From: Gracilariopsis chorda
Taxonomy: Eukaryota > Rhodophyta > Florideophyceae > Gracilariales > Gracilariaceae
Assembly (NCBI GenBank): GCA_003194525.1
Contig: NBIV01000069.1
Span: forward strand, 186,001 to 250,000
DNA length: 64,000 nucleotides
Direction: 5' to 3'
The notes beneath the pieces are model-generated. The model made no database searches, was not told the origin of the DNA, and worked only from the letters and a program-made list of their open reading frames with translations. The position numbers and the translations under genes are program-made. Below are positions 20,514 through 49,840 of this stretch, piece after piece; the stretch's first letter is position 1; every line of letters starts with the position of its first letter.

Positions 20514-21116
20514 ATGCGCTACCTTATCCCTGCTATCGCTCTGCTCTTTCTCAGATGCCATGTCGCGGCAGGTGCTGAGAGCTGCACTAATCCCCTTCCC
20601 TTCCCCTCAGATATCGTACGCCGTACCTTTTCCCGCTATACCCCTTGCGGACCCGGCCCTATACAGGTCACGGAGACGGCCATGGCCTTTCGAACGCACG
20701 TGATATACCGTCCCCGTGGGCATGACTACAAAGAGCTACCCAATGGGCGATTCGCCTGTATGCCAAAGTACATCCTAAGGCTAACTGCTTCTCACTACTC
20801 GCCACTGCTTGAGGTTTACCCATACGTAGAAGACCCCGACTCTCGCAATTTGAACGACATCTACCGTTTCTGCAGGAATGTGGAAAAGACAAAGAAGAGC
20901 GTTTACGAACCGTGGGGAGCCAACAGGCAAAAATATATCGATGGCATGCGGACCATGGTTGCCGGCGTGAAGCATGTCAAAGATTGGGGCTGCCTTCTTG
21001 ACAAAACTAGTGGCCGAGATGTTTGGACGGAAAGAACTTTCGGGAACTATGATGCTGGTGGTATTGTGACGTACCTGTTGGGTGTGGCTTACAACAACGG
21101 CTTCTGTGGGGAATAG
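20514..21116 (+). CDS. Orphan secreted six-cysteine protein
   Basis: The 200-residue protein begins with a clear signal peptide (about residues 1-20, LIPAIALLFLRCHVAAG). The mature part has six cysteines, C24, C45, C82, C120, C160 and C198, at fairly even spacing, suggesting three disulfides. It is rich in Tyr, Arg and Pro, ends with NNGFCGE and has no membrane segment after the signal. I do not recognise the family. The gene has a well-placed TATA box. Single-exon, same strand as the two cysteine-rich genes but unrelated in sequence. Confidence 0.75.
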   Translation: MRYLIPAIALLFLRCHVAAGAESCTNPLPFPSDIVRRTFSRYTPCGPGPIQVTETAMAFRTHVIYRPRGHDYKELPNGRFACMPKYILRLTASHYSPLLEVYPYVEDPDSRNLNDIYRFCRNVEKTKKSVYEPWGANRQKYIDGMRTMVAGVKHVKDWGCLLDKTSGRDVWTERTFGNYDAGGIVTYLLGVAYNNGFCGE

Positions 21117-26104: not shown

Positions 26105-26884
26105 TGTGGTGCAATACCCCAAGATGGGACAGACCCACGAGGGTGTTCGACGTCCTCCTCAGCATGGTAGCGCAGCGACAGAACCACCTGTGGTGAGTAC
26201 ACGGAGCCGGGTGTAAGACCGGGACTCACCGTCACGACTGGCGTACAGGTGTAGAGACAAAGACAGACCACGGAGTGGGAAAGCGGAAAATGCAGCGACA
26301 CACGAGTGGTGGGCGACGCGCAAGAGCGGCACGGTGTCCACACGAGGGGGGCGGTGGCGGAAACAGCAACGGTAATCACCGGTAGTTGCTAGTGAAGCAA
26401 CACCTGTATACGGGGCAAGGAATAACAATCGCTGTAAAAGCGTGCACAAAAACAAACACAATAGTGGTAAGAATGTGCTGAGCTCCACGAGGTGGGTAAC
26501 TAGGCCTTCACAGGATGGCGTCTCTCCAGACGGAGGTGGACACTCACCAGGGAACCTGAGTTAGAGCCAGACACTCGCTTGTTGCGTTTACTTTGACCCG
26601 GGCAGCCGGAGCTCACACACATAAGTAGTGGTGGTCCGCGCCCTGACAGTACAGTAGTAATTAACTAATAATAACTAATAATGTCCCTACGGGGGTGCAA
26701 AACACTACACACGTGTGGCACAAGCCAGCAATGCTGTGCACTACACTTGTCAACCAAATTGGGGCCCTTCCAACGGAAACAGATTACCGGTGTAACACTC
26801 ATACTTCACGGCAAAGTGGTGAGCATCGCCAGAGAGGTATATGAGCGCACGACGTGCTGATACCGCTAGGAGCGTTGCACTTCA
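26105..26884 (-). repeat. 3' LTR of chromovirus A
   Basis: 780 bp with TG...CA ends, about 99.4 percent identical to 47774-48553. Its inner 44 bases overlap the annotated start of the antisense ORF. Confidence 0.95.
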
Positions 26885-28817
26885 TCTCCCCCTCCTTAAG
26901 GAGCAAGAACCACATTCGGTGAGCGTTCGCCGCGACAGCGCGTTGTGCATAAGTATATCCGCGTCAAGTGATGGTACCGTATCCGACTCGGGTTTTGTCT
27001 TCACTCAAGTGGATATCCACCGAGAACAACTCGACTTCAGCAACTCTCCGCCTATCCCGCGACGTCCTGCTTTACCTTCCGCGCCCTCAGTGATGAATCC
27101 CAGAAACAACGATCCGCATGGCGGGAACAATCTTCCGCCATCGGGTTTCTTTTCCGGTTTTCCGACTGCACCGCTTCTGTCCTCTGCGGGTCATCCAAGC
27201 AACGCCTCGGGCGGTACACCTGCCACTCCTAGTATGTCGGTTCCGTCGCCTGCGGCGAGCGCACTACCGTCGTACGACGAGCTGGTATCCGTTGATCCGG
27301 CCGAGCAGCCTTCTCGCTACAGCGGTGCGCCTTGGTTCCACCCAACGTTGGTGCAAAATGAAGATCTCATCGAGCAGTATGCTGATGGTAGCGGACTCCT
27401 TCCGGGCGATCTCCACGTATGGATGACTCTCAGCTTTGACTGGCGTAACCGGGTCGCCGTGCCGACGCACGTCTTGGTCCACCGTCGTGGTGAGAGTGGG
27501 GCGCAAGCGCGTATCGCGATGATTCAGCTCGCGTATCAGCGGTTGTATCGGAATCCATCGGAATTCCCGGTCCCAGAAGAATATCAGTTTGATATTGCCT
27601 TCTACCGCACCCAGGGTGAAATGGGGTATGGGGACCGCTTAGCAGCGTTGGCTCCGTCCATGCCAGAGCGGGGTCCAGCGGCATCTGTTCACCGGAACTA
27701 CCTGTGTTGGGCAAGGCCGATACTTCGTGCTGAGTTCCGTTATCTTCGCCATAATCCGCGGTCTAACTTCCTCCAGATGATCCGTTTTGAACGTCGTTCC
27801 CGGTCCCGTTTCGGGTACATGATACCGTATCAGAACGTTGAAGCTGAGCGCATCCGACCGCAGTACATGCGAGGCCGTTACGTTCCCCTACCGAGGATGT
27901 GGGCTGCCCACGAGGCTTGCAGGGGTTGCTACATCGAGCTTCCGCCATGCATCACCTACATCGGTAGTCGACTATGCAGCAATCCGTTCTCCGGGTGGTG
28001 GTCCGTTGTCCTCACTGAGTGGGTCGCCCGCGCAGCGGCGTATCTCGTCTTCGAGGTTTACGACCAGTTCAGACTGTGGTGTCTCCCTCCGCGAGTGCGT
28101 AGTGGCATCCGTTCATTGGATCTCTCCCTCGTTCTCGGCGGTGCCGGCAACTATAATGAGGCTATCTCCCTGTTGGACGCGATGGACCAGGTTGACTGGA
28201 ACAGTGTGCCCATCCAATGGAGTCGCCGTCATCAAGGTACCAATCCAGCCGACCGGTCTCCGGGGCGCCGAACTCCGTTGGCGGGTGATTACGTCTACTA
28301 CGATCCTGTAGAGCGTTGCTTCATCTCCGAGCCGGAGGCATTGGCACTCCGCGATCGCGAGCGAGTTGTTCCACCGGGTCATCCGACGGGCTACATCGTC
28401 ACTGACGGATACTTCCAACCCTATGAGGAGGCCGATCCAATGATGGACAATGATCCTCCCGCGACTGGGGTGGGCGCAAACGGTGGCGGTGGCCTTCCCT
28501 CAGCTGAGGGCTTCAGGGCGCCGGCGTACTCTACTCCGGGTCCATCCGTGGCTCCTCCGGCTGGGCCGAGTCAGGTTCCGTCTTGGAACATTCCTCACGT
28601 CGGTGGTGGTCCCTTCCATACCGCTCCGGTTGGAAGTGGCACGCCATCGGCGGGTGTGACCGGTCAGGACCGTGCGGCCATCATTGCCCAATTCCTTGGC
28701 GAACTAGGAATGGATACCTCGGGAGCTTCCGGTGACATCGCGCAAATGCGGGCGGCCATGCTAGCGCTGCTGGCGCAGCCAGGCCATCATCATCAGAGTG
28801 GTGGTCCATCCTCTTGA
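26841..28817 (+). CDS. Antisense ORF of chromovirus A (unknown protein, 658 aa)
   Basis: A 658-codon frame on the strand opposite gag-pol, between the 3' LTR and the end of pol. The first ATG (26841) lies inside the LTR; the ATG at 27093 (MNPRNNDPHG, residue 85) is an alternative. Residues 70-150 and 540-600 are rich in Pro, Gly and Ser; the middle (about 170-480) looks globular with many Trp, Tyr and Arg. Two blocks match the antisense ORF of chromovirus B: WWSVVLTEWVARAA near 386-400, and LLDAMDQVDWNSVP around 443-457 followed by a YYD motif and a VVPPG motif. An AATAAA follows at 28909. No RNase H, envelope, membrane segment or known enzyme motif was recognised. Length, conserved relatedness and its own polyadenylation signal argue that it is a real gene, convergent with pol. 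Confidence 0.78.
   Translation: MSARRADTARSVALHLPLLKEQEPHSVSVRRDSALCISISASSDGTVSDSGFVFTQVDIHREQLDFSNSPPIPRRPALPSAPSVMNPRNNDPHGGNNLPPSGFFSGFPTAPLLSSAGHPSNASGGTPATPSMSVPSPAASALPSYDELVSVDPAEQPSRYSGAPWFHPTLVQNEDLIEQYADGSGLLPGDLHVWMTLSFDWRNRVAVPTHVLVHRRGESGAQARIAMIQLAYQRLYRNPSEFPVPEEYQFDIAFYRTQGEMGYGDRLAALAPSMPERGPAASVHRNYLCWARPILRAEFRYLRHNPRSNFLQMIRFERRSRSRFGYMIPYQNVEAERIRPQYMRGRYVPLPRMWAAHEACRGCYIELPPCITYIGSRLCSNPFSGWWSVVLTEWVARAAAYLVFEVYDQFRLWCLPPRVRSGIRSLDLSLVLGGAGNYNEAISLLDAMDQVDWNSVPIQWSRRHQGTNPADRSPGRRTPLAGDYVYYDPVERCFISEPEALALRDRERVVPPGHPTGYIVTDGYFQPYEEADPMMDNDPPATGVGANGGGGLPSAEGFRAPAYSTPGPSVAPPAGPSQVPSWNIPHVGGGPFHTAPVGSGTPSAGVTGQDRAAIIAQFLGELGMDTSGASGDIAQMRAAMLALLAQPGHHHQSGGPSS
26885..26899 (-). 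promoter_or_regulatory. Polypurine tract of chromovirus A
   Basis: On the minus strand TTAAGGAGGGGGAGA directly abuts the 3' LTR. The same bases encode part of the antisense ORF if its first ATG is used. Confidence 0.8.
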
Positions 28818-28908
28818 GGGAGCGAAGTGATGTTCCCACGGTTGGCGTCCACCATCCCTGATAGTTGGGGTCGTGGTAGTGGTAGGCGAGGGCAATTACG
28901 TGTTAACG

Positions 28909-28914
28909 AATAAA
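28909..28914 (+). terminator. AATAAA after the antisense ORF of chromovirus A
   Basis: AATAAA lies 92 bp after the stop codon at 28817 on the plus strand. A pyrimidine-rich run follows. Chromovirus B has the same signal 31 bp after its antisense ORF. Confidence 0.5.
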
Positions 28915-29110
28915 CGCTTAACTTCCCTCGTGGGGCTTGTGTCTTTTTCTTCTTTTTCTTCCTTGCTTCTTCCTATCCAGGGTCTTCTTCTTCTCTTCAT
29001 GAGCCAGCTTCATCTTCTCTTCCATGAGGTTTCCATCTTCTCGCATTCTCAAGGCATCCATCTTCACACCGGAAAACCGGGCTCACGGCTCACTTGGCCA
29101 ATTCAGTGGA

Positions 29111-29719
29111 TTATCCAACGAGCGCTCGGTCAATCGTGCCTGGTATTCCCGTTCTGGTACGGTGGTGATACTGCACGATTTTCGATCGGGGCAAGTTCTC
29201 TACCGGTTCGTCCGTGTTATGTGACGGCGGGTACCCATACCAGCGCACCTGGTACTGAATATATCCCTCTGGGTTGTAACTGTGCCCGACGATACGGTCG
29301 ATAATGAACTCCTTCGAGTAAACGTCACGCTTCGCGGTTCCGGTTGCAGTCCGTACAACGGCTGTTTCCGACGGCAAAGCCGGTGATGAGTCCGTCCAAC
29401 GGTTCGTGGCGTTCGCTTGCGGCGTTGACCATGTGATTTCCTGATGAGGGTCGACTGAATTCCTCGTTGAGGTTGACGCTACCCCATCGGATTCGGGAGA
29501 TCGTACCGCTAGTCTGCGAGGGCTTCCTCGTCCCATTTCCAACGGTTGGTGACGGGGAGGCAGTTCATGTGCCACGGCGGGTGCCGGTTGGCGAGGCGTA
29601 TCCAAATGGTTGGCTGTCGTCGTCCTGTACTGCAGAGCTGTGTCACCGTGAATGGGTGTGTGGTGCACATCTCGCAACACGTGGCGATCAGGCTCTCCTG
29701 CATATGCGGTGTGGGCCAT
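29111..29719 (-). pseudogene. Chromodomain-containing C-terminus of chromovirus A pol, out of frame
   Basis: Residues 136-187 of this minus-strand frame (about 29159-29314) form a chromodomain: FIIDRIVGH, YQVRWYGYPP, then NTDEPVENL. In chromovirus B the matching segment reads DTWEPRENI, so the Trp that helps form the methyl-lysine cage is replaced here. The frame does not continue from the preceding integrase frame, which ends at 29821. The chromodomain therefore would not be fused to integrase without recoding. The family uses this domain to steer integration toward particular chromatin. Confidence 0.75.
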
Positions 29720-29820
29720 CCCTGCTCGGGTTGACGCAACCAGTCTTTCAATACTGTGAGCTGAATTCAGATGATCTGAGCTGCTTGGTACAGTACAGAG
29801 AGACTTCCTCTAATGAGAGA

Positions 29821-31032
29821 CTATTCAATTTCAGATAAACCATTTGTGGGACCTTGCGCATCCACTTGCGAGGGTGTCGAAGCGTCCTGTACATCAGGGT
29901 TCCATACACCGGGATCTGCCGTGACTTGCTTAGTCTGCGCTGCAGCGGCGGGGATCCTTACAACTTTCTCGACGGGAGCCGGTGAGTAGGGGGCCAACGG
30001 AGCGTCCGGGTTCCGAGCCAGGCTTCCCGTGTTCATTCCTCCAACGGGAGATGACAGCACAGTGTCTCTGTCCGGTTTTCTTTGCAGCGTCTCGCGAGTG
30101 CGGTTGGCAGTGTGCTCCCTTAACGGAGGTGACTGCGTAGCGTGCTCACGAGGCTTTCCATCGGCGGGGCCGGTCCTTCCAGTCTGCTGAGGTAGTTCCA
30201 CGCGTGCGGCGGTAGCGTGCGGTGTCCCTACTTCAGGTTGCCGTGCCTCACGAGAGTTTACAGGAGCTCGCGACGGCGGTGTAGACTTCGCTGAAAAGCG
30301 GGATTGACTGGCCTCCTCCCCCTCCTGAGCCGGGGCGGCGACGGGGGCTGAAACAACGTCTGACGGTGGTTCGACACGCGGCGTAAAGCGCGAGCGAACG
30401 TGTACCGGAGATTCCGAAGATTGCTGCGACAGAATCGGTATGTCCGAGAGACCTCTCGATGGGCGCGCAACGCTAATTGCGCGGTGCGAGGAACCTGCTT
30501 CTGCAGTAGGCATCAGTCGAGCGTCCGGGATTCCGGGAGCCAGTACAACTTCCGAATGCGGGTTAGGGGCTTGTACGACGCGATCACGGCTGAACCGTTC
30601 ATGAGAATCGCCAACTTCCAGTACAACTGTGTCTCGGCTCACTGAAATGACCTTGTAGGGGCCATCCGCAATGGGCGAGAGTTTGTGGCGTTTCTCCTTC
30701 TCAGGGTTGTAGTATTCCTTCCTGACGAAGACGAACTGTCCTGCTTCCAGTGAGGAAAGAGGCCGACGGACTCGGGCATCGAAATTTCGTTGATACGCTC
30801 GTTGCGCTCGCGTCATTGACGATTTCGCGACCGGGACCATCCGTGTGAGCCAACTCTTCCATCGAAGGTAATGATCAACCGTTGACGGGTACTTGTCCTG
30901 CGTTGGCTGCGACTCAATCGCCACAGGCGGTGGGGGACGTGAGAGCACCAGCTCGAAGGGTGATAAGCCAGTTACTCTGTGTACCTGCGTATTGTACGCG
31001 TGTACGTCACGGTGTCTGTGTACAAATCCCAT
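29821..31032 (-). pseudogene. Chromovirus A pol, C-terminal integrase segment with GPY/F module
   Basis: Starts with AYNTQVHRVTGLSPFELVL, the region after the integrase core, followed by the GPY/F-type module (SPIADGPYKVISVSRDTVVLEV) and a long Pro/Ser/Thr-rich tail ending at the stop 29821-29823. It is one frame away from the upstream integrase piece; the switch is near 31000-31030, where YTDTVTY and HAYNTQVH overlap in two frames. Confidence 0.8.
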
Positions 31033-32660
31033 GTACGGGGGTGCTCAACTGCATACGCACGTAAAGCGGACAACAACGTTCGGTTAAACCGTTCCACCTG
31101 CCCATTTGCTTGGGGATGGTATGTCGTTGTAAACAGATTTCTGATGTCAAGTATTCTACAAACATCTTGGAAGAAACGCGCGGCGAACTGCGGTCCGTTA
31201 TCGGATAAGAGATTAACCGGTGGACCGTAGACGAGAACCCAGTGACGGACAAATGCTTCTGCCACGGATCGTGCGGTAATCTTCTTCAACGGTACAGTCC
31301 GGACGAGCTTCGAGAACCTATCCGTTATTACGAGTAGAAACTTGTTACCACGTGCAGTGTGAAGGAACTCACCGAGTATATCGATGGCGACAAATTCTAG
31401 CGGAGCCCGTGCCGGGAACAGGGTCAATTTCTTCGCATAGCGGCGTAGCTTGACTTGCTCACGAGCACAATGGGTACAAGACCGAACAATCGCGTAGCAA
31501 TCCAACTCAAGTGCGGGCCAGTAGAAATGCCGACGTAACGTCGTGTATAGCCTCCTTCCACCAGGGTGTGCAGCTAACTTCGAAAAGTGCGAGAGATGTA
31601 ATACTCTCCACTGGAGGGAATGGGGAACCACTATTTGTGACGAAGAACACACAGTCCTTACCAAGTAACCTTTTGAGTCGACTCCGAAAGGAATGTTAGC
31701 ACCTCCATTGAGTTGGGCGCGTATCTTCGTACAAAACGGGTCTCCATACTGTTCGCGGATCATCTCTTCGGGAGTGATCGGTGCGAAGGATCCGGTATCC
31801 GGTTCTTCACCGTCAGCAACGAGCAGATCATCAGCAATATCATCTGAAACCAGATCATAACGTAACTTCTCTTCAAGAAGGAAACAAGGGATATCATCGT
31901 CATCGACGGAAAGTGTTTCCGCTTCCGTTCCCAAACGAGACAAAGCATCAGCCTGTGTATTAAGGCAACCCTTTTTATAGGCGACTTCATAATCGAACTC
32001 AGCGAGGCGCAGTCTCCAACGCATCAAGCGGCCCGCTGGTTCCGTGACGGACATTAACCAACGCAAAGCGGAGTGGTCCGTATTAACGGTGAAGCGTGTG
32101 CCCATCAGATATGGTCTGAGTGTTTGCAGAGCCCATACCATGGCGAGGCATTCCTTTTCAGGGACTGAGTAGTTCCGTTCGTGGACGTTGAGTGTTCTGG
32201 ACCAAAAACCGATTGGTTTCCGTTCCCCATCGGGAGTCGTTTGGAATAACGCACAACCAATTTGGTAATCACTCGCATCCGTATCCAAGGTATAAGGTAA
32301 CCCGTCCTTAGGCAACGATAATATCGGTGCAGAGGTGACAGCCTCCTTCAGAGATTTGAAAGCTTCCACCTGTGCAGGGTTAAGGGGGCCCAGTTTTGGC
32401 GGTTGTCCTTTTCGAAGAAGATCATTAAGGGGTCCCGCAATCTTTGCGAAGCTTGGGATGAACCGTCTATACACGTTACATAACCCTAGAAAGGAGCGGA
32501 GTTCTGTTTGAGTTCTCGGGTGCTTGGCCTCTTTGAGAGATTTGACCCGAGCTTCCTGTATCAGCAAGCGCCCAGGGCGAATAACGTGGCCCAGGTACTT
32601 AACCGATTCGGTAAAGAATTCGCACTTCCTCAGCTTGAGGGTTACTCCAGCATCACGTAA
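31000..32660 (-). pseudogene. Chromovirus A pol, RT end, RNase H and integrase core
   Basis: Contains the RT connection (ELRSFLGLCNVYRRF), RNase H (TLDTDASDYQIG, EKECLAMVWAL, NTDHSALRWL, ADALSRLG), the integrase zinc finger (HLSHFSKLAAHPGGRR ... CTHCAR) and the core with Asp (AIDILGEF), Asp (LLSDNGPQF) and Glu (QANGQVERFNRT). A frameshift near 32655 separates it from the RT palm on its right (...EIMTTY in one frame, LRDAGVTLKLRKCEFF in the next), and another near 31020 separates it from the C-terminal part. Residues are intact; the reading frame is not. Confidence 0.85.
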
Positions 32661-32909
32661 GTGGTCATGATTTCACGAACGTGTTCTAAATGATCATCCA
32701 AGTTGTTGGAGAAGACTATGATATCGTCAAGGTAGACGAGGCACGATCGCCATTTGAAGCGGGCCAAGAGGATATCTAACGCACGCTGGAAAGTAGCGGG
32801 AGCGTTTGTTAACCCAAACGGCATACGCTTAAAGCGGTACAAACCTGAATGACAGACGAAAGCGGTCTTGTCACGGTCTTCCGGTCTTACTGGTACTTGC
32901 AAGTATCCC
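32642..32909 (-). pseudogene. Chromovirus A RT palm, cut by chromovirus B
   Basis: Carries GYLQVPVRPEDRDKTAF, RMPFGLTNAPATFQRALD and the catalytic VYLDDIIVFS. It begins at the ATCCC target site of chromovirus B (32905-32909); the preceding half of the RT is at 43874-44225. It ends in a frameshift. Confidence 0.88.
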
Positions 32910-33387
32910 TGTAGGATAGTGAGCCAAGTGGGCAAGCTCCTAATGGTCTCGTGGTAGCGTGGCAGAGCTGGGGGGTCCTAAGGTTAATGAAGCGGCGGCG
33001 ACACCTCTGGTAATGTTGGCGCAATGGGGTGGCGCTGACTACGCAGTCCTACAGGTCGGAATTGCGGTAGCGATACCTTGAAGGCCAAAGGGAATTGTGA
33101 GTACCGAGTACGGGGGTGCTCAAGACTCACAAGGGTGTCTGAGTTTACTGTCCCTAGGGGAGGCGCAGCTCGAGGTGCCTAAGTATCGGCACCGAGGCGC
33201 CTCGACCCTGTGGCACTGTAAAGTGCCCTACTCTACAGTAGCTATATCTAGTCCTATGGTTACTAATTCAATAAAATTAAATAAATTATATAAAATACAG
33301 ATAGCCATCCTTGGGCCAGATACACAACGTGTATCGTCCACATGGGTCTCCAGAGTTGCGGAATCCACTGGACTTCACTATCTCACA
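32910..33387 (-). repeat. 3' LTR of chromovirus B
   Basis: 478 bp, one mismatch with 43396-43873. It contains an AT-rich segment with TATATAAAA on the plus strand at 33287-33295 and TTTTATATAA on the minus strand at the same place, so it could drive transcription either way. Confidence 0.95.
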
Positions 33388-33401
33388 TCGCCCTCTCCTT
33401 A
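33388..33401 (-). promoter_or_regulatory. Polypurine tract of chromovirus B
   Basis: On the minus strand AAGGAGAGGGCGA abuts the 3' LTR. It shares the AAGGAG start with the tract of chromovirus A. Confidence 0.75.
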
Positions 33402-33718
33402 GGCTTGACCGTCTCGGTCGAACCGCTTGTCCTCCACGGGTATCTTCAGCCCATTGGCCGGTTACCAAGTTTTTCCTTTGGTCTCACCGTTCCTACAACG
33501 CACCTGTCCGATTTCAGCTGTCAGCGGCACCCCGCTCCCCTTTGGCCGAGTGCATGAGGGCGTTCGCCCCCCTGGAGGAGCCTAGTCCGTACTCTTTCCG
33601 ACCATATCTCGTCCTAAGGTCGGCACGGCGGGGGAGGCCGGGTGTCCGGTCTCCGGAGAGGCCAGTGGTAGTGCCACGGTGCTGTTTCCATCGGGCGAGA
33701 AGGACCTGAGGAGTCCTA

Positions 33719-35926
33719 ATGGAGTTCATACAGCGTCGGGGGCGCTCCAAGCGCCTCGCGATGTCCCATTGGTCGACGCCGTTGATCGGGTGGCACGCGG
33801 CATCAGCTGTTCAAGTGGGTTCATCCGTGATCGCGTCCATCGGTCACGTCGGCGATCGCGCGCGCCATCGCCTTGTCCACCGGTCACGGCTGCTATCGGC
33901 GTCACAGTATAAGTGGCGCTCGGACTCTCCAATGGACGACGCGTTCACCCTTGAGGTATCGGACATCACTCCTGTGGGTCTGCCGCCTTCCATCGCCCGA
34001 ATGGCTAGTTCCTCCGGCGCCGGCCGCGGCTCCAGCTGGACCCCTGGCACGCGATACGACCACACCCATGGTAGACCGCGCACCAATCGCGAGGTCTCTG
34101 TCCCTTGGTCTGTCGAGGAGTACGTAGGGTCCATGAGGGGGCGTTATTTCGACGCGCGTCGTTTCGAGGCCGTTCCGGACTTCCCGCGACAGAGCAAGAA
34201 TGCCCGTCCCGTTTCGTGGAAGAACCGTTGGTTGCATCAGCCGATGGACGTCCGTACTGGAAGGAGGACTCGCGAACTTGTCCCTGTGGATATACCGTTC
34301 GTCCGCTGCTCGGAGGAAACGGACTACCAGTGGCGCCTCAATTTCCTTGTGGACGAGCTCTTCCGCCACTTCCCAGCGGGCTCTGCGGACCAGTTTCCTC
34401 CTAAGGGACATAATCCATTGGGCCTGCTATGTTTCCTCCCGCCGTATGACGGAATATACTGGATGACCAACAGGGACTTTTGGGGAGACATCGTGGAGCC
34501 GGATTCTCGCATCCGAAGGTCCCTTGGATACTTCTTTGGCTGGCATAACATTGAGTTTCATGATATGCCAGCCCGTAACCGTGAAGGTCTGTATGCGCCG
34601 GTCTACGAGTTTCCCGATGGGTCTGGGTTCCAGTCCTTTTGGCAGGTGTCACCGCTCCTCTTGGTTCCGACTCCTTCGGTCTTTGCGTATCACACCAAGC
34701 AGCTCCTCGATCCCGAGAGCCGCCTGTGGCAGGTTGCATTCGCGGAGTGGGGCGTGTTCGTCCTGATGGCCTTCTTGCACACCGCGCGCTACGGAGTCCG
34801 TGGGAACGTCCGCAGTAAGGATTGGCGTGTGTGGTCCGATGGAATTGGCATGAGCTGTCCAAAAGGTCGAGTGTGTCCGCTTCCGGTCTCGCTCATTAAC
34901 TATTTTCGCAACTTCCTTGGGGTTCAGAACGTAGTCCGTGGGACGGAGTTCACCGTTGAGGACACCGAAGGCCTTTTGGAACATGTCCTGCAGGTCGATT
35001 GGGAGAACACCCCTGGCTTCCTTTGGTATGATTATGAGACCGATACCTTCAGGAATATTCCCCGCCACCCACAGGGTCATGACAACGGGAAGGCCTACTT
35101 GGCGAAGCCGTTGAAGGAGAATCCACCGGTCGTCCCGCGAGGAAGCGTACAGGACTACTGGCCTAAGGGTGAGGGCTTCTCTTCAAAGAATTTCCTGGAG
35201 GATGAGGCGTTGCCCGAATCTGGGGGTGGTGCGGCTCCATTGGCGATTCCCTTGGGTCCTTCGGTGGTTACCGATGGGGACGATGGGGACGCCTTCGCAG
35301 GTCCGGAGGTCGCGCATGTTCCCGTTGGTCCTTCGGTTCCTTCATCTGCTCCGCCCCCGGCTGGTCCTCCGGTGGTCGAGCCTACTCCAGCTGGTCCTCC
35401 AGTGGAAGAACCTGCTCCTGAGGTCAACCCTTACATCCTTGTGGGTGGGGCGCTTTCCGTGTCGGTCACCCCGCTGCCGCCTATCCCGGCTATCCCTATG
35501 GGCGTAACCAATGCGGCCGAAGCTCTCCGTGAGGTCGCTGGTGCCGCTGGCCTCAATGTTTCCGGTGGCCTTGAGGACTTATTGCGCCGCGCTAGGTCTT
35601 GGGCGCGTCGTGCGTCGCGTTACGGGGCCCTGCTGGAGGAGAATGAGGCCCTAAAGGACTCGGTGGAGCAGATCCTACAGGAGAACGCTCATGTGCTGTC
35701 CAACAAGGTCCTTGCGGACATCGACGCTCGCTATGGGCTCGCTTTGAGCGACAGTAGCGGCGGTGCAGGCTCCGCGTCCAGTGGTCCGCACAGTCCTCCG
35801 CGCAAGCGCCAGCGCACGGTGGGTCCCAGTGGTCAGAGTTCCGGTGGTCAGGCGCCAACCGATGGCGGTGGTGGTGCGTCTGAGGGCCAGGGCGGCGACG
35901 CGATCACGCCGGCTCCATCGGCCTGA
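33719..35926 (+). CDS. Antisense ORF of chromovirus B (unknown protein, 735 aa)
   Basis: A 735-codon frame opposite gag-pol, starting 331 bp after the inner end of the 3' LTR. Later starts are possible (MDDAFTLEV near residue 72, or MASSSGAGRG near 95). The middle (about 170-450) is Trp- and Tyr-rich and looks globular. WQVAFAEWGVFVLMAF near 335-350, LLEHVLQVDWENTP at 418-432, FLWYDYET and PPVVPRG match blocks in the antisense ORF of chromovirus A in the same order. A Pro-rich linker (about 540-590) follows, then a heptad-like coiled coil (618-672), and a basic cluster PPRKRQR at 693-699 that resembles a nuclear localisation signal. An AATAAA is at 35957. No known domain is recognised. A DNA- or RNA-associated nuclear accessory protein is a guess only. 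Confidence 0.82.
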   Translation: MEFIQRRGRSKRLAMSHWSTPLIGWHAASAVQVGSSVIASIGHVGDRARHRLVHRSRLLSASQYKWRSDSPMDDAFTLEVSDITPVGLPPSIARMASSSGAGRGSSWTPGTRYDHTHGRPRTNREVSVPWSVEEYVGSMRGRYFDARRFEAVPDFPRQSKNARPVSWKNRWLHQPMDVRTGRRTRELVPVDIPFVRCSEETDYQWRLNFLVDELFRHFPAGSADQFPPKGHNPLGLLCFLPPYDGIYWMTNRDFWGDIVEPDSRIRRSLGYFFGWHNIEFHDMPARNREGLYAPVYEFPDGSGFQSFWQVSPLLLVPTPSVFAYHTKQLLDPESRLWQVAFAEWGVFVLMAFLHTARYGVRGNVRSKDWRVWSDGIGMSCPKGRVCPLPVSLINYFRNFLGVQNVVRGTEFTVEDTEGLLEHVLQVDWENTPGFLWYDYETDTFRNIPRHPQGHDNGKAYLAKPLKENPPVVPRGSVQDYWPKGEGFSSKNFLEDEALPESGGGAAPLAIPLGPSVVTDGDDGDAFAGPEVAHVPVGPSVPSSAPPPAGPPVVEPTPAGPPVEEPAPEVNPYILVGGALSVSVTPLPPIPAIPMGVTNAAEALREVAGAAGLNVSGGLEDLLRRARSWARRASRYGALLEENEALKDSVEQILQENAHVLSNKVLADIDARYGLALSDSSGGAGSASSGPHSPPRKRQRTVGPSGQSSGGQAPTDGGGGASEGQGGDAITPAPSA

Positions 35927-35956: not shown

Positions 35957-35962
35957 AATAAA
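35957..35962 (+). terminator. AATAAA after the antisense ORF of chromovirus B
   Basis: AATAAA 31 bp after the stop codon on the plus strand, within TCTCAATAAAGTC. It places the end of this transcript before the end of pol on the other strand. Confidence 0.6.
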
Positions 35963-36751: not shown

Positions 36752-39700
36752 TTAATTCGAACCTTGACCATTGGATTTCAATATGTATGCCCCCTCCTTA
36801 AGGTCGCGCTCCGTGCGGCCCATGCGGCGCCAAAACCTAAGGACAAAGTTCTCCGGGATGTTCTCCCGGGGTTCCCATGTGTCCTCAGAGGGTTTGTAGC
36901 CGTACCAATGGACACGGTATTTGACGACGCCGTCGTCGTCAATGCCGGCATTGACCACACGGTCTATAGCGCTTTCCTTAGGAAGTGAAGATACGTCCTT
37001 CGGAACATCCACAGGCCACTCCTCGGGGAGATCCATCTCGTCCAAAGGGGCGTAACCATCATTGGCCAACTGGGACGGTACTCCGTCGTTGTGTTCCTCT
37101 TGGGATGAGGGGGCCAGTGGGTCAGCCGAGACGGCCTTTGGAAGTGGTGTAGCGATCAATGGATCTGCCGTAACTACCTTAGGGCGGGACGAAAGCTGCT
37201 CGTCCGTAGGTGTAGAGTCCTGTACGGCGGAATTGGGAGCATCTGAAGGGGCGTCCTCAGGAGTTTCCAAAGGGGAACCAGTGGGCTTCGGCGGCATAGG
37301 CGCGGCCGTAACGCGGTCAATTGCGACGGTGTCCTGTAGGCCATCGATTTCAATAGTGACCGTATGGGACGTAGCTGAGAGAACCTTATAGGGACCAGTG
37401 GACCGTGGGAGGAGCTTTCGAGTGATGACCTCGATATCGTCCTGCGGCTTATCCGATGGAGCGCGGTCTAAGTAGACCATGTCACCGGCCTTAAAGGATA
37501 GCGTAAACCTGACGGACTTATCGAAGTCATCCTTGTACCTCCGTTGGGACTTGTTCAACCGTGCTCTGGCCGTACGGATGATATCGTCAATCCGCTTCCG
37601 GGTGTACCGTTTGGCCTGGGCAGGGGTCATTTCTGCCGTGAAGTCCTGTGGTATCCAGCTGTCCTTAAGGTCAACCGCAAAGTGCGGGGGCTGTCGCGTG
37701 AGCGTTAGGTCGAAGGGTGTAGTCCCCGTGGACCGATGGACTTGCGTGTTATACGCATAGACCAGTGGTCCGACGTAGTCATCCCAATCGGCCTGGTGCT
37801 CTGCAACATAATGCACCAACCTGTCCTTAATGGTTCTATTGAAGCGCTCAGCCTGTCCATTGGTCTGCGGATGATAAGCCGTTGTGGTGACGTGCTTAAT
37901 TCCTAAGGTCGAACAGACGTGAGCGAAGAATTTTGACACGAATTGTGGCCCGTTGTCCGATAGGAGATAAAGTGGCAGACCATATGGATACACCCAATGG
38001 GTCAAGAACGCCATTGCTACGTCAGTGGCCGTAGTGGACCTCATGGGAATAGCTCTGGTGAGCTTGGTGAACCGATCGGTAAGCACCAATATAAATTTGT
38101 TCCCATGGGTCGTTGACGGTAATGGCCCTAGGATATCCGTAGCGATAAACTCCAGTGGTCCTGCGGCTGGGAACAGCTTCAACTTGGCCTGATGGATGGT
38201 TTTCGAGCCGCGTGCTTTCACGCACGAAGCGCATGTCCTAGAGGTTTGCCAGAGGTCATTAGCCATAAAGGGCCAGTAGAAATGTTTCCTTAAGGACTGA
38301 TACATTCTTGTTCCGCCAGGATGGCCGGCCAACCGGGGGTAATGGGCGAGGTATAGAACCCGTGCCCTGAGGACCTTGGGAATGACCCGCTGGATTGCTC
38401 CGTCCAGAGGGGCTCTGCGACAGAGCAGTCCGAATCGGTCGTAGTCGAACAGACAGCCAGGGGTCCCGACGAGGTCAGCCTGGTTTTTGCAGTACTCGTC
38501 GTCCTTTTGGGCCTGAAGGAGCTCATCCAGCGTGATGGGCAAGAGCTCCTTTTCCTCTGGTTGAACCGCATGAACCTCAAGGGTCCGCGCTTCGCTGTCG
38601 TCATCCATAGGCCAGTCCACAAGGTAAACTGCATTCACGTCCACATCGGAGTCATCGCAATTAACGCGTCCTAGAAGGAAGTCATCCTCATGGTCAGATT
38701 CATAACCTGAAAGGTCCGGCGTGGGTAGCTCGTCGTCCAGTGGGGATTCGTCGGTGCCGTCGGTTAGGATCCTAGAGAGGGCATCCGCTGCTCGGTGCTT
38801 GATCCCCGGCCTATAGGCAACGTCGAAATCAAACTCCGACAGGCGCAATCTCCATCGGGCGAGCCTGCTGGACGCGTCGGTCATGTTCATAAGCCACCTG
38901 AGGGAATGATGATCAGTCCTAATGGTAAAGCGGACTCCTTCCAAGTATGGCCTTAAGGTTAATACTGACCAGACAATGGCTAAGCACTCCTTCTCGGACG
39001 TGCTATAATTCCGCTCTGGGCTCGTTAGCGAGCGGCTCCAATATCCAATTGGTCTATAGTCCTTCGGAGATTCTTGTTCCTGGAGGAGAACACATCCAAT
39101 TTGGCCATCGGACGCATCCGTATCAAGGATGTACGGTTTGTCCGGTTTAGGCAAGGCCAATATAGGAGGGTTCAGAAGCTTATCCCGCAGGGCCTCAAAA
39201 GCTTCGTATTGTTCGTCCGTCAGGCAATCGAACTCCGATGGGGTCCCTTTGCGCAGCATGTCGTTAAGCGGCGCAGCGATCTTTGCAAACCCTTGGACAA
39301 AGCGACGATAGACGTTGCACAGACCTAAAAAAGAACGCAACTCCGTATGGGTCCTGGGGGGCTTAGCTTGCCGTATGGCGTCAGTCGTCCTCGAGGCAAC
39401 CTGTAGGCAGCCAGGGCGGACCACATGGCCAAGATAATCCACAGAGGACTGGAAAAAGAAGCACTTGGGGAGCTTCAAAGTTATTCCGGCCTCACGGAGA
39501 ATCCTCAGGACTGTTCTAACATGGGAGAAATGTTCACCAATGGTCTTCGAAAAGATGATAACGTCATCCAAGTAGACCAGCGCGAACTTCCATTTGACCC
39601 TAGATAGGATAATGTCCATTGCCCTCTGGAACGTCGCGGGTGCGTTCATTAATCCAAAGGGCATCCGAATGAATCGGAAAAGTCCCTCGTGGGTCGTAAA

Positions 39701-41014
39701 CGTGGTCAGCGGCTTCGCGTCATCGTCCAGTGGTATTTGCCAATATCCCCAATTGGCGTCCAAGGTGGTAAAGACAGCTGCCTCTCCTAAGGAATCGAGA
39801 CAGTCGTCCATCCGGGGGATAGGGTACGAATCCCGTTTGGTCATAGCGTTGAGCTTCCTATAGTCAACGCAAAACCTGACGGAGCCATCCTTCTTGGCCA
39901 CAAGGACAAAAGGGCTTGCCCATTCGGACTGATGAGGAGGAGCTGGCTCGATGACGTTGGCCCTCCTCATCTTGTCCATCTGTTCGGCCACGATGGTTCT
40001 TCCTTTTAGGCCCGTCCTATAGGGGTGCTGGTACACTGGCTTCGCGTCGTCCTTAAGGTCAATTCGGTGCTTTGTCGCCCGAATCTCGCCTAGCTGGCCA
40101 GACCACATGGATTTGAATTCCCGAAGGAGCTCTATAACCTGAGGCCTATAGGATTCGAATTCGTCGCCCATGTTGACGTCCCCCTCCCAGGACTCGACGT
40201 CCTCGTCGTCGTCCGGTTGGGAGTTGTCCATATTGGTTTCCATAATGGCCACAGGAGCTGGCAGGGCGATGCCAACTACTGTTCCTTTAGGTAATCGAAC
40301 CGGGTGGTCAGTGAAGTTACTGATACTGACCACAAAGGGCTGCCGCGGACGGATGTCCATAACTCCATTGGCCATAAGGGTGAGTTGACGCCGGATCGTC
40401 TTGGGATGATTCTGCAGCGTCAAAAGACCAGAGGACTCGCACTGAACCCAAGCGGTGGTCTGAGTCATCGCAGGGATGACCAGGGCTTTTGTGAGCCTGA
40501 CCTTATTGGACACAGTGTTCGTCGCCAGTGGAGGTTTCCGCGGGTTTGCCTCAGGTCCCGGCTTGGAACCTATCAGGGCCACAGGATGTGCGCGATAGAA
40601 CGCGACTTTCCGAAGGCCAGGGTAGATGGCCTTCACGTAGCGGTCGATGAAGGAAGTCCCAAGGATACATTCCGCTCCCAAGTTTGGACATACGAGGAAC
40701 CACGTGCGGACTCGCAAACTTCCCAGTTGGACAAATAAAGAAATGATTCCTTTAATGGCCATTGGTCTGCGCGAAGCATCAGTGATCCTAGGGGTCTTCC
40801 TCACCTGAACCTTGTCTTCCCAACCACTCGGTAGGACCTTAGGATGTACCAAATTGGGCCCAGCGCCCGTGTCCAGCACACTCGTAGCCACTCTAGAGTG
40901 TGAGGGGCGGAGTCCTATGGTCATTCGAACTTTATAGTTCTCCTTCCTCAGGACACAAATAGGGTCCTGGTCATCCAGCGACGGCTCCAAAGGGTCGTCG
41001 ATCCATTCGTCCAT
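36752..41014 (-). CDS. Pol polyprotein of chromovirus B (protease, RT, RNase H, integrase, chromodomain)
   Basis: 1420 residues without interruption. Protease: VLDTGAGPNL with active Asp 48. RT: WASPFVLVAKKDGS, TLDANWGYWQIPL (Asp 419), MPFGLMNAPATFQRAMD, YLDD at 481-484. RNase H: DTDASDGQIG (631-640), SEKECLAIVW, TDHHSLRWL, ADALSRI. Integrase: zinc finger H891, H898, C928, C931; core Asp 960 (ATDILGP), Asp 1020 (LSDNGPQF), Glu 1056 (QAERFNRT). A GPY/F module lies near 1205-1223. Chromodomain at 1347-1397 has the aromatic residues WYGY and DTWEP. The frame stays open upstream of the ATG at 41014 to about 41257, overlapping the end of gag by some 140 bp. It is displaced by -1, so a Gag-Pol fusion by -1 frameshifting is likely. 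The protein copies and integrates the element. Confidence 0.95.
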   Translation of the reverse strand: MDEWIDDPLEPSLDDQDPICVLRKENYKVRMTIGLRPSHSRVATSVLDTGAGPNLVHPKVLPSGWEDKVQVRKTPRITDASRRPMAIKGIISLFVQLGSLRVRTWFLVCPNLGAECILGTSFIDRYVKAIYPGLRKVAFYRAHPVALIGSKPGPEANPRKPPLATNTVSNKVRLTKALVIPAMTQTTAWVQCESSGLLTLQNHPKTIRRQLTLMANGVMDIRPRQPFVVSISNFTDHPVRLPKGTVVGIALPAPVAIMETNMDNSQPDDDEDVESWEGDVNMGDEFESYRPQVIELLREFKSMWSGQLGEIRATKHRIDLKDDAKPVYQHPYRTGLKGRTIVAEQMDKMRRANVIEPAPPHQSEWASPFVLVAKKDGSVRFCVDYRKLNAMTKRDSYPIPRMDDCLDSLGEAAVFTTLDANWGYWQIPLDDDAKPLTTFTTHEGLFRFIRMPFGLMNAPATFQRAMDIILSRVKWKFALVYLDDVIIFSKTIGEHFSHVRTVLRILREAGITLKLPKCFFFQSSVDYLGHVVRPGCLQVASRTTDAIRQAKPPRTHTELRSFLGLCNVYRRFVQGFAKIAAPLNDMLRKGTPSEFDCLTDEQYEAFEALRDKLLNPPILALPKPDKPYILDTDASDGQIGCVLLQEQESPKDYRPIGYWSRSLTSPERNYSTSEKECLAIVWSVLTLRPYLEGVRFTIRTDHHSLRWLMNMTDASSRLARWRLRLSEFDFDVAYRPGIKHRAADALSRILTDGTDESPLDDELPTPDLSGYESDHEDDFLLGRVNCDDSDVDVNAVYLVDWPMDDDSEARTLEVHAVQPEEKELLPITLDELLQAQKDDEYCKNQADLVGTPGCLFDYDRFGLLCRRAPLDGAIQRVIPKVLRARVLYLAHYPRLAGHPGGTRMYQSLRKHFYWPFMANDLWQTSRTCASCVKARGSKTIHQAKLKLFPAAGPLEFIATDILGPLPSTTHGNKFILVLTDRFTKLTRAIPMRSTTATDVAMAFLTHWVYPYGLPLYLLSDNGPQFVSKFFAHVCSTLGIKHVTTTAYHPQTNGQAERFNRTIKDRLVHYVAEHQADWDDYVGPLVYAYNTQVHRSTGTTPFDLTLTRQPPHFAVDLKDSWIPQDFTAEMTPAQAKRYTRKRIDDIIRTARARLNKSQRRYKDDFDKSVRFTLSFKAGDMVYLDRAPSDKPQDDIEVITRKLLPRSTGPYKVLSATSHTVTIEIDGLQDTVAIDRVTAAPMPPKPTGSPLETPEDAPSDAPNSAVQDSTPTDEQLSSRPKVVTADPLIATPLPKAVSADPLAPSSQEEHNDGVPSQLANDGYAPLDEMDLPEEWPVDVPKDVSSLPKESAIDRVVNAGIDDDGVVKYRVHWYGYKPSEDTWEPRENIPENFVLRFWRRMGRTERDLKEGAYILKSNGQGSN

Positions 41015-41115: not shown

Positions 41116-43290
41116 CTACGCGTTTTCCTGTTCGGTCTTTCCGTGACGGTCCACTGGAGCTTCCACGGGGGTCACCTGAGGGACAGTATCCGTATCGGAA
41201 ATATCGACAGCGTTGACCTGAGAGGCTGGAGCCTCCCGCGGCGTGGCGTATCGACTAGACCCTGAGGACTGATTCCGCTGGTACTGACGAGGGTAATTTC
41301 CCTCCGCCCTCCTGGCCTGGAAGTTCTCATCCCTTAGGGCCAACAGGTTCTTGCGAACGTCCTCCGGCATGAACTTCATGCAATCACACGGCCTGGCCGT
41401 GGAAAGGCAGAGGTAGCAAGGGGGCCCGCGGGTGAATACGTCCTTCCTAGGTTGGACGAAAGTATACCGCGGCGTCGTTTGTCCAGATGGAGTAGTAGTA
41501 GTTCCAGTGGCCGATATGGATGGAGCACCAGACGGAGCGGAAGAAAAAGAGACCGCAAGGATATCTCCTTCTTCCGAACGGATGTTACCAGTGGACTCGC
41601 TTTCAGAAGAGTTGACCATATGGACTTTGGAACTCTTCCTTAAGGGTGATGCTCGGCCTCTGGTATCCAAGTCAGCCGCTCGGCGGGATGTCCTATAGGT
41701 CTTGCCGTATCCTTCGGCATATGTGACCAGCTGTCGGAACGAGAGGCGTTGGTTGTCCGAGTGGTGATTACGCACGTGAGTCCTAATGGCCGGCAGCAAT
41801 CCAGCGATGAAGTGCTGCTTGAGTCGCCCTTCGGAAAACACATTCCCACAGCGGTACGCCTTCTTCCACAGTTGGTCAGCAAAGTCCGTTTCGGTTACGT
41901 TAGTGCTTTGCCTAAAGGAAATCACGTCCTGATGGGCATCCATGATTACGTCATCAGTGGCGTACGTCTCCAAAAGGTAATGGACGACCTCTGGGTAGGA
42001 CCTAAGGAGCTCCCTATCGGTCGCATCCATTGGGTCACTGGAACCGGAGATCTTCGAAACCACATGGTCACGCGCTTGTCCACTGAGGAAAAACTGAAAC
42101 AGATACAGAGCGGCTCCCTCGTGGACGCCGTTCTGGTCGCAGGCCGTACGGAATTGAGACAGAAACCTAAGGACAGCAATCGGGTCAGCGCCCGAGAATT
42201 TGTCCGTGACGGTAAGCTGCATCCGTTTGGCCCACTTGGTGACTCGTCGAGCCACCGAACCGGAATACCTTGAGGACCTGTTGTCCAGTCGGTAAGTCCG
42301 ATAGTCCAACACTTTCTTAAAAAGTTCGTTGGTGGTTGCCAGCGGCCTGAAGCGTCGAACAGCCGCCTCATCCGCGTCCGTATCGGTCGAAACTGACGAG
42401 TCCGAACTGGACCCGTCATCGCTCTCGTCCGAATGGTCTCTCCTCTTCCTCGACTTCTTGTTCCTTCTAGGTCTTCTATTCTTCCTTCGGTCAGCACTTC
42501 GCTCGTCCAATGGAGCGATCTCGACATCGCCAAATCCGATGGGTCTGCGGGCCTGCTGGGAGCCCTGGTACCTCATGGGTCGTGCAGTCATTAGGCCTTC
42601 TTGCCGGGGAGGCTCTCTTCCACTCCCTGGGTGCACTTCCATTTGGTCGTCCTGTTGGTTTACCCGGCGAGGGGCTGGTAAAGCAGCCACTCCCGGGGGT
42701 TCGGAGTGTGGTTGCCACACGGAGGCCGAAGGAATACTTTGAATATTGGCCGCGAGGGCCGGGGTGCCTACCTGGCGTGTGACCTCCGTCCGTATGGTCG
42801 AGGCCATGGCTTCCACGAAGGTCGTGGATTCCAGGACCTGAGGAACGAGGCGAGTAATCCTTTGGTCAATCATTCCGTCAAGGACCTCTGGAACACGCGT
42901 ATCCAAAAGGGACTGGACGTGCTCCTCACAGAGCCGTTTCAGCTGCGGCCAAAGGACATCTGCGAGACCCCTGGAGAGGTCTTCCCTCACATCTGGAGAA
43001 GCTTCCTGTAGGTCTTGCGTCGGCGTGGCCGGCTGGGAATTGATCCTGTTAAGGCGTGAGCGGAGACGAGCGGCCAAATTGGACTCTCTCGCAATCCGTT
43101 CAGGATTATCCACGGGGGTCAATGGACGCCCTAAAGGTTGACTGCGCGTACTCCGTCGGTCACTGCTCGCATCGGCCGCGAGGCCAATGGTTTCAGGAAC
43201 CGTCGACAGTCCACTGGGGCCAGCCTGTGGCGTCCTCTGGTCATCTGGTCGGTTGTTATTTTCGGTATCCATGGGGCGGTTGCTTGTCAT
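41116..43290 (-). CDS. Gag of chromovirus B
   Basis: 724 residues from an ATG 105 bp after the 5' LTR. The N-terminal 300 residues are charged and low-complexity, including a basic run RRKNRRPRRNKKSRKRR and an Asp/Ser-rich run. The capsid-like core is at about 355-520 (AVLRFLSQFRTACDQNGV, ALYLFQFFLSGQARDHV, FADQLWKKAYRCGNVF, LKQHFIAGLLPAIRTHV), a pattern shared with gag A. A cysteine cluster PPCYLCLSTARPCDC replaces the usual zinc knuckle: it keeps C-x2-C but lacks the His. The ORF ends CAG-GAA-AAC-GCG-TAG. It would form the particle that houses reverse transcription. Confidence 0.9.
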   Translation of the reverse strand: MTSNRPMDTENNNRPDDQRTPQAGPSGLSTVPETIGLAADASSDRRSTRSQPLGRPLTPVDNPERIARESNLAARLRSRLNRINSQPATPTQDLQEASPDVREDLSRGLADVLWPQLKRLCEEHVQSLLDTRVPEVLDGMIDQRITRLVPQVLESTTFVEAMASTIRTEVTRQVGTPALAANIQSIPSASVWQPHSEPPGVAALPAPRRVNQQDDQMEVHPGSGREPPRQEGLMTARPMRYQGSQQARRPIGFGDVEIAPLDERSADRRKNRRPRRNKKSRKRRDHSDESDDGSSSDSSVSTDTDADEAAVRRFRPLATTNELFKKVLDYRTYRLDNRSSRYSGSVARRVTKWAKRMQLTVTDKFSGADPIAVLRFLSQFRTACDQNGVHEGAALYLFQFFLSGQARDHVVSKISGSSDPMDATDRELLRSYPEVVHYLLETYATDDVIMDAHQDVISFRQSTNVTETDFADQLWKKAYRCGNVFSEGRLKQHFIAGLLPAIRTHVRNHHSDNQRLSFRQLVTYAEGYGKTYRTSRRAADLDTRGRASPLRKSSKVHMVNSSESESTGNIRSEEGDILAVSFSSAPSGAPSISATGTTTTPSGQTTPRYTFVQPRKDVFTRGPPCYLCLSTARPCDCMKFMPEDVRKNLLALRDENFQARRAEGNYPRQYQRNQSSGSSRYATPREAPASQVNAVDISDTDTVPQVTPVEAPVDRHGKTEQENA
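41122..41128 (-). promoter_or_regulatory. Candidate -1 frameshift heptamer at the end of gag B
   Basis: On the minus strand GGAAAAC, read G-GAA-AAC in the gag frame, ends one codon before the gag stop. The identical CAGGAAAAC ends gag A. The pol frame is open here and lies at -1. It is not a perfect X-XXY-YYZ heptamer (the first triplet is GGA), but the A-site part AAAAC is typical. Confidence 0.45.
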
Positions 43291-43395: not shown

Positions 43396-43873
43396 TGTAG
43401 GATAGTGAGCCAAGTGGGCAAGCTCCTAATGGTCTCGTGGTAGCGTGGCAGAGCTGGGGGGTCCTAAGGTTAATGAAGCGGCGGCAACACCTCTGGTAAT
43501 GTTGGCGCAATGGGGTGGCGCTGACTACGCAGTCCTACAGGTCGGAATTGCGGTAGCGATACCTTGAAGGCCAAAGGGAATTGTGAGTACCGAGTACGGG
43601 GGTGCTCAAGACTCACAAGGGTGTCTGAGTTTACTGTCCCTAGGGGAGGCGCAGCTCGAGGTGCCTAAGTATCGGCACCGAGGCGCCTCGACCCTGTGGC
43701 ACTGTAAAGTGCCCTACTCTACAGTAGCTATATCTAGTCCTATGGTTACTAATTCAATAAAATTAAATAAATTATATAAAATACAGATAGCCATCCTTGG
43801 GCCAGATACACAACGTGTATCGTCCACATGGGTCTCCAGAGTTGCGGAATCCACTGGACTTCACTATCTCACA
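43396..43873 (-). repeat. 5' LTR of chromovirus B
   Basis: 478 bp, one mismatch with the 3' LTR. The next bases are the target duplication ATCCC and then the RT of chromovirus A. Confidence 0.95.
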
Positions 43874-44225
43874 ATCCCCAGTTCGCATCCAATGTGGAGA
43901 AGACAGTCGCCTCACCGAGAGAGTCAATGTACTCGTCCATTCGCGGTATGGGGTACACGTCTTTCACAGTGGCGGCATTAAGGCGACGGTAGTCGATGCA
44001 AAAACGCCAAGTCCCATCGGGTTTCGGAGCCAGTACCACTGGGGATGCCCACGGTGATTGAGCCGGTTCTATCACGCCTTCGCGGAGCATTTTATCCACG
44101 TGGAACTGTTCTTCCTCCCTTGCTTTGGGGCCTGCCCTATAGTGGTGTTGAGCAATCGGCCTGGTGTCCGGTAACAAGTCAATCCGGTGTTCCGTGGCCG
44201 ACACCTCCCCGAGGGATCCATCCAC
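43874..44225 (-). pseudogene. Chromovirus A pol, start of RT
   Basis: Carries LGEVSATEHRIDLL, the linker to RT, then WASPVVLAPKPDGTWRFCIDYRRLN and FSTLDANWG, where chromovirus B inserted. It is one frame away from the upstream protease piece; the shift is near 44215-44235 (SMWMD in one frame, MDGSLGEV in the other). Confidence 0.88.
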
Positions 44226-47773: not shown

Positions 47774-48553
47774 TGTGGTGCATTACCCCAAGATGGGACA
47801 GACACACGAGGGTGTTCGACGTCCTCCTCAGCAGGGTAGCGCAGCGACAGAACCACCTGTGGTGAGTACACGGAGCCGGGTGTAAGACCGGGACTCACCG
47901 TCACGACTGGCGTACAGGTGTAGAGACAAAGACAGACCACGGAGTGGGAAAGCGGAAAATGCAGCGACACACGAGTGGTGGGCGACGCGCAAGAGCGGCA
48001 CGGTGTCCACACGAGGGGGGCGGTGGCGGAAACAGCAACGGTAATCACCGGTAGTTGCTAGTGAAGCAACACCTGTATACGGGGCAAGGAATAACAATCG
48101 CTGTAAAAGCGTGCACAAAAACAAACACAATAGTGGTAAGAATGTGCTGAGCTCCACGAGGTGGGTAACTAGGCCTTCACAGGATGGCGTCTCTCCAGAC
48201 GGAGGTGGACACTCACCAGGGAACCTGAGTTAGAGCCAGACACTCGCTTGTTGCGTTTACTTTGACCCGGGCAGCCGGAGCTCACACACATAAGTAGTGG
48301 TGGTCCGCGCCCTGACAGTACAGTAGTAATTAACTAATAATAACTAATAATGTCCCTACGGGGGTGCAAAACACTACACACGTGTGGCACAAGCCAGCAA
48401 TGCTGTGCACTACACTTGTCAACCAAATTGGGGCCCTTCCAACGGAAACAGATTACCGGTGTAACACTCATACTTCACGGCAAAGTGGTGAGCATCGCCA
48501 GAGCGGGATATGAGCGCACGACGTGCTGATACCGCTAGGAGCGTTGCACTTCA
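47774..48553 (-). repeat. 5' LTR of chromovirus A
   Basis: 780 bp, five differences from 26105-26884. Followed on the plus strand by the target duplication ATAAC and then Copia protease sequence. Confidence 0.95.
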
Positions 48554-49782: not shown

Positions 49783-49840
49783 GGTAGAAACTTGAGCAGC
49801 ACAAACAAGACGAATAAAACTCACAACAGTTGAACAGAAT

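Follow-up and report, generated by a model that had tools for sequence, protein, structure and literature searches.

Two Ty3/gypsy retrotransposons of the red alga Gracilariopsis chorda, here called A and B, each carry a long antisense open reading frame (ORF) between the stop codon of pol and the 3' long terminal repeat (LTR), and these two related ORFs are almost certainly real coding genes that serve the element. Both elements lie in the window, a stretch of 64,000 nucleotides (contig C69, positions 186001-250000) of a 91.3-Mb assembly of 1,081 contigs, on which the genome searches were run. A first-pass annotation made from the letters alone had described a long antisense ORF in this slot of each element; both ORFs are intact, and its overall claim that the genes are real, related and coding is borne out by dN/dS and by a profile match. 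Antisense accessory ORFs in this slot are already known as a kind; this protein family, with its red-algal host, did not turn up in the literature searched.

Both elements lie on the minus strand, with B nested inside pol of A (Table 1). Their earlier description as chromoviruses agrees with a domain scan in which a chromodomain closes the minus-strand pol of each: all four of reverse transcriptase (RT), RNase H, integrase and C-terminal chromodomain are present in pol of B, and RNase H, integrase and chromodomain were matched in the 3' part of pol of A, which identifies it, too, as a chromovirus. The two LTRs of A are 99.4% identical and those of B 99.8%, and each element is flanked by a 5-bp target duplication (ATAAC at 26100-26104 and 48554-48558 for A; ATCCC at 32905-32909 and 43874-43878 for B). 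As had been stated, the LTRs of the two elements are unrelated, the best BLASTN match between them covering 30 bp (E = 0.013).

Table 1 Features of elements A and B, in window coordinates.
Feature	Position	Strand	Basis or remark
3' LTR of A, 780 bp	26105..26884	-	LTR pair
Antisense gene A, ORF of 658 aa	26841..28817	+	ORF list, dN/dS
Polypurine tract of A, adjoining the 3' LTR, within the antisense open frame	26885..26899	-	role by position
AATAAA behind antisense gene A	28909..28914	+	sequence; putative poly(A) signal
pol of A, 3' part (RNase H, integrase, chromodomain)	29111..32567	-	three ORFs in this copy, interrupted by the insertion of B
3' LTR of B, 478 bp	32910..33387	-	LTR pair
Polypurine tract of B	33388..33401	-	role by position
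Antisense gene B, ORF of 735 aa	33719..35926	+	ORF list, dN/dS
AATAAA behind antisense gene B	35957..35962	+	sequence; putative poly(A) signal
pol of B (RT, RNase H, integrase, chromodomain)	36752..41014	-	1,420 aa open
ORF at the gag position of B	41116..43290	-	Retrotrans_gag, E = 0.0049, weaker than the curated cut-off
5' LTR of B	43396..43873	-	LTR pair
5' LTR of A	47774..48553	-	LTR pair

In both elements the antisense gene and pol are arranged tail to tail, that is, convergently. Each antisense ORF had been described as closed by its own AATAAA, and exactly one such motif occurs within 300 bp downstream of each. The true starts of both genes probably lie downstream of the annotated ORF starts, since the first ATG of ORF A falls within the LTR and constraint is weak over the first 50 codons of both genes (dN/dS 0.67 in A and 0.65 in B). 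For gene A, the coding start is likely to lie no earlier than about 26991 and no later than the ATG at 27093; gene B has further in-frame ATGs at 33932 and 34001. At 26841-26905, the open frame of ORF A crosses the LTR end and the polypurine tract, which translates as ALHLPLL; the frame of another locus, L060, contains a comparable stretch, whose conservation there may stem from the tract and not from the protein.

A comparison of dN/dS, which the first-pass annotation had proposed, revealed purifying selection in the own frame of both genes, and a ratio near 1, named there as evidence against a coding function, was not what emerged: values between subfamilies are about 0.2. In a survey of the window genes against 50 loci, two of these being the window's own, gene A gave 0.22-0.27 against its sister subfamily A' (10 loci) and gene B gave 0.19-0.29 against B' (5 loci), while the more distant L025, L027, L028, L052, L054, L055 and L058 gave 0.20-0.39, several of them with saturated dS. 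Close copies ranged from 0.46 to 2.4 on the basis of few changes, as expected from drift after insertion, and L023 and L026, at 0.66 and 0.72, are copies disrupted by 15 and 12 stop codons. A six-frame control used BLAST alignments of between-subfamily comparisons, six of them with A-type and four with B-type loci. In all 10 alignments dN/dS was lowest in the antisense frame, at 0.15-0.24 in nine and 0.32 in L052; frames +1, +2, -0 and -1 gave 1.27-3.01. The C-terminus of pol, read in its own frame, gave 0.42-0.54 in seven loci and lower values in L021 (0.28, 68 codons), L041 (0.07, 47 codons) and L052 (0.33), and in three of the ten comparisons (L041, L052 and L021) pol constraint was equal to, nearly equal to or above that of the antisense gene (L021: 0.28 versus 0.15). 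Windows in the core of the genes fall mostly at 0.04-0.22, one A core window being at 0.62: gene A has 0.04-0.22 over 27141-28040, followed by 0.62, 0.14, 0.79, 0.46 and 1.78 at low dS, and gene B has 0.06-0.22 over 34019-35368 and 0.18-0.59 downstream.

Between 26900 and 27700, the divergence of A from A' (L037, L038, L040 and L042) is 0.115-0.24, compared with mostly 0.04-0.13 in the LTR and past 27.7 kb, and dS there reaches up to 0.9; over its full aligned length, L038 matches A at 89%. The raised divergence marks a mosaic, probably one in which lineages have swapped the portion of the antisense gene next to the LTR.

By sequence comparison, the antisense proteins of A and B are homologous over 204 columns. 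BLASTP aligns them directly at 32 bits (E = 8e-5; 22% identity over 247 aa), and a profile-profile comparison of eight A-type with four B-type proteins gives a probability of 97.9% (E = 3.3e-13 over the 204 columns), with a score of 109 versus at most 27.9 in 50 column-shuffled controls. Among the 628 window ORFs of at least 50 aa, each profile scored just two above threshold, its own gene and the antisense gene of the other element (1.4e-6 and 3.3e-5). Four blocks had been read as shared in the same order by both proteins. The segment TEW/AEW and the motif LL-x4-QVDW-x3-P do lie within the profile match; past the DW motif the A and B profiles do not match (probability 0.4%), so that homology of the other two, YYD/WYD and VVP-[PR]-G, is unsupported, and in the alignment VVP-[PR]-G is not conserved in the B-type relative P0001.

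The antisense protein consists of a conserved core of 200-300 aa flanked by variable tails rich in Pro, Gly and Ser. Counted from the ATG at 27093, the core of A spans roughly residues 75-375; counted from the ATG at 34001, that of B spans roughly residues 95-340. Blocks conserved in the alignment of A-type proteins are APWF, DW, YRT-GE, RP-I-RAEFR, R-R-G-PY, RY-P, GC-E-PP, W-AA, R-LD and W-V. The basic stretch PPRKRQR pointed out earlier in B has a counterpart in three of the four B-type proteins, where a KRxR-like patch lies near the C-terminus; none of the eight A-type proteins has one there (one has an internal match). Net charge is negative in all 12 family proteins, which, together with the lack of a C-terminal basic patch in the A types, does not favour simple nucleic-acid binding.

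Neither window ORF matches Pfam at E up to 1, and at E up to 10 the 12 family members gave a single match, DUF6127 at 0.1 in one member. Among PDB sequences, the A profile had no match and the B profile two at E 1.2 and 1.8, no relative among them; scans of IMG/VR with the two profiles returned 26 and 32 pattern hits, none of them a relative. In public protein sets, the A antisense protein matches P0005 ('hypothetical protein BWQ96_10156 [Gracilariopsis chorda]') at 42%, and P0005 occurs over most of its length in six places of this genome at 97-99% identity. A combined-profile protein search added one further protein, P0006. The sequences of P0001, P0003, P0004 and P0006 suggest that the family extends beyond this genome; P0001 has its best match here at 39%. 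The ENA protein P0002 contains in its first part PF11638 and PF00308, which we take to be DnaA domains, joined to a B-type antisense protein, and probably results from bacterial and algal DNA having been misassembled.

Antisense genes of this family are widespread in the assembly. Genome matches number at least 67 for A, at least 94 for B, at least 82 for P0005, at least 68 for P0001 and at least 79 for a C-type protein, in sets that overlap so that some copies are counted twice. The gene occurs in at least nine subfamilies, namely A, B, G and six further ones (L059-L064). Of 56 loci selected by a match to the antisense protein itself (L009-L064, with the window's own two included and L001-L008, other cuts found by DNA, excluded), 55 have a pol match immediately 3' of the gene and on the other strand, the exception being L058. 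Frequent stops in other copies, which had been put forward as grounds for doubt, did not materialize, stops being rare in recently expanded families. Among the matches listed, all 23 rows of the G subfamily are free of stops, as are 45 of the 55 E-type rows, which were assigned by identity (42-46%); at least 8 of the 23 G rows have a facing integrase match (counted by eye). For A and A', 24 of the best 26 integrase matches have a listed antisense match nearby (counted by eye), none being seen for C47 and C28. Many C copies have a TAA past residue 500 of 553, which is taken as tail variation. One G copy, L065 (G000:C96:144300-149300), has an intact chromodomain end of pol and no antisense match, only a start-like stretch being left, probably through deletion; the idea that the G subfamily lacks the gene was rejected, as other G copies carry it.

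The history of the gene parallels that of pol. FastTree topologies of the antisense protein and integrase agree for eight subfamilies, with the groups (E,(P,F)), (D2,(B,D)) and (A,C), support for the A-C node being low in the integrase tree (0.30). Pairwise identities of the two proteins are correlated (r = 0.905 for 27 of the 28 pairs, the A-F pair with its 43 aligned residues being left out). Without F, r is 0.934, a value reached by 20 of 5,040 permutations; much of the correlation is driven by the deep A/B split. Because pol faces the gene in nearly all loci and the two trees agree, the simplest reading is that the antisense gene is older than the A/B split and has since been kept with pol and inherited vertically.

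Genes of similar layout are known from plants. The genes of A and B lie antisense to gag-pol between pol and the 3' LTR, the position that defines the plant aORF-3R, such as Grande GENE23 and those of RIRE2 and PvRetro13 (PMC7264820). Slot and orientation are the same, presence in most copies may be shared as well, and conservation is shared, the red-algal genes being conserved like other element proteins (own-frame dN/dS 0.15-0.32 versus 0.07-0.54 for the pol C-terminus); compared by description, they differ in their red-algal host and chromodomain elements, and no common Pfam domain was found. GENE23 of maize Grande is nuclear with its own promoter, according to PMC7264820, and an antisense transcript of its own has been shown for Grande; by analogy, the red-algal product may also be nuclear and made from its own promoter. 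The antisense TRP28 proteins (PF04195) of Retand elements, reported in 97% of clusters (PMC11963269), share slot and orientation as well, but Retand elements belong to a non-chromovirus lineage found in flowering plants. Membership in TRP28 was rejected, as PF04195 has no match in the genome at E up to 10 and none in the 12 family members. The first-pass annotation had framed the comparison around the plant Tat lineage: antisense ORFs near the 3' LTR are indeed known from plants, but the frame is too narrow, since Boty of Botrytis has an antisense additional gene in this slot, brtn (PMC7264820, PMC8365987). Likened to the red-algal gene by description, brtn is an extra antisense gene whose Ty3/gypsy-type element comes from a fungus and not from a plant. 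Some chromovirus drawings in PMC2864245 show an additional ORF of unknown function. HBZ of HTLV-1, mentioned in PMC11963269, can serve as a working analogy, with no homology claimed: it, too, is an antisense gene at a retroelement 3' end and its product is a nuclear regulator, although HTLV-1 is an animal retrovirus. No report of this family or of any red-algal element antisense ORF was found in literature in which subscription journals are thinly covered, which makes this weak evidence of novelty.

What antisense accessory ORFs do in LTR elements is described as an open question in PMC7264820. The red-algal family adds a large natural set from an unrelated lineage, with many subfamilies, many intact copies, an integrase-like tree and selection on amino acids; selection here keeps the protein itself and not the antisense RNA alone, and a conserved core is now on hand to express, localize and solve. 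We envision transcription from a promoter at or close to the 3' LTR, yielding a short convergent mRNA that would terminate at its own AATAAA, so that the protein could be made apart from gag-pol. The protein would then benefit the element by acting in trans within the nucleus, the weakest step of the model, either holding element transcription on against silencing or regulating it. For the whole picture, a convergent, separately expressed, nuclear accessory gene of red-algal chromoviruses, we see about an even chance (probability roughly 0.5). Counted in its favour are dN/dS, the homology of A and B, the linkage to pol, the integrase-like tree, the open frames and the KRxR-like patch of the B type; counted against it are the acidity of the proteins, the A types without a basic patch, the three of ten cases of pol constraint, the 0.62 window, L058 and L065. 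That the help consists specifically in regulation or anti-silencing is a tentative proposal, and the roles put forward in the first-pass annotation (export, silencing suppression, integration) are conjectural. Equally speculative is a broader reading, in which an ancient antisense family of red-algal chromoviruses, unrelated to the plant ones, would act as a dedicated nuclear regulator or silencing antagonist, the slot having been filled separately in plants, in fungi and in red algae because a gene close to the 3' LTR gains a second promoter that does not depend on what becomes of gag-pol RNA.

Several other explanations compete with a nuclear accessory gene. It is unlikely, though worth keeping in view, that the protein is a partner in integration or nuclear import that enters the pre-integration complex, where it might serve as target adaptor for the chromodomain integrase, its separate synthesis putting it in place before new cDNA comes. 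The gene is co-inherited with integrase and adjoins the chromodomain in both window elements, as it adjoins the pol C-terminus in 55 of 56 loci; however, co-inheritance with any part of pol would give the same picture. Somewhat less probable again is a self-limiting brake, by which antisense transcript and protein would restrain copy number through double-stranded RNA with gag-pol mRNA or through a dominant protein effect. The convergent layout overlaps gag-pol RNA, and an RNA-based role for such transcripts is discussed in PMC7264820, but selection on amino acids means that RNA alone is insufficient and disfavours a purely RNA-based role, and a simple brake is disfavoured by frames that stay open in recently expanded families rich in near-identical copies (all 23 G rows among the matches listed). 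We give little credence to a structural or particle protein, or a factor for cell-to-cell spread, made from a separate mRNA: the protein is large, conserved and acidic with low-complexity tails, as might suit such a role, but it shows no profile similarity to the gag-position ORFs of the elements among the 628 window ORFs.

Two further explanations fare worse. Capture of a host gene as cargo is very improbable. The first-pass annotation had held that a host gene captured only once would overturn its interpretation, and the finding of no relative outside these elements leaves room for an unrecognized host source, the more so as loci were picked by a match to the antisense protein and a distant host gene could be missed; a single host capture was nevertheless rejected, given at least nine subfamilies, an integrase-like tree and pol adjoining in 55 of 56 loci. 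A chance ORF that mirrors constraint on the opposite strand has next to no probability: frame -2, whose third positions coincide with those of the gene, is likewise low in dN/dS (0.26-0.39), yet it contains 23-38 stop codons, compared with 0-2 in nine alignments and 6 in one for the antisense frame, and this explanation was rejected on the lowest dN/dS and few stops of the antisense frame.

The surroundings of the two elements contain a further retrotransposon, a Ty1/copia element (RVT_2, integrase and copia-type gag) at 23321-26122 and 48535-49824 that is split by A, so that the nesting is three deep, with B within A within the Ty1/copia element. At 20514-21116 on the plus strand, a 200-aa ORF without a Pfam match has a hydrophobic start and several cysteines, and the look of a secreted protein.
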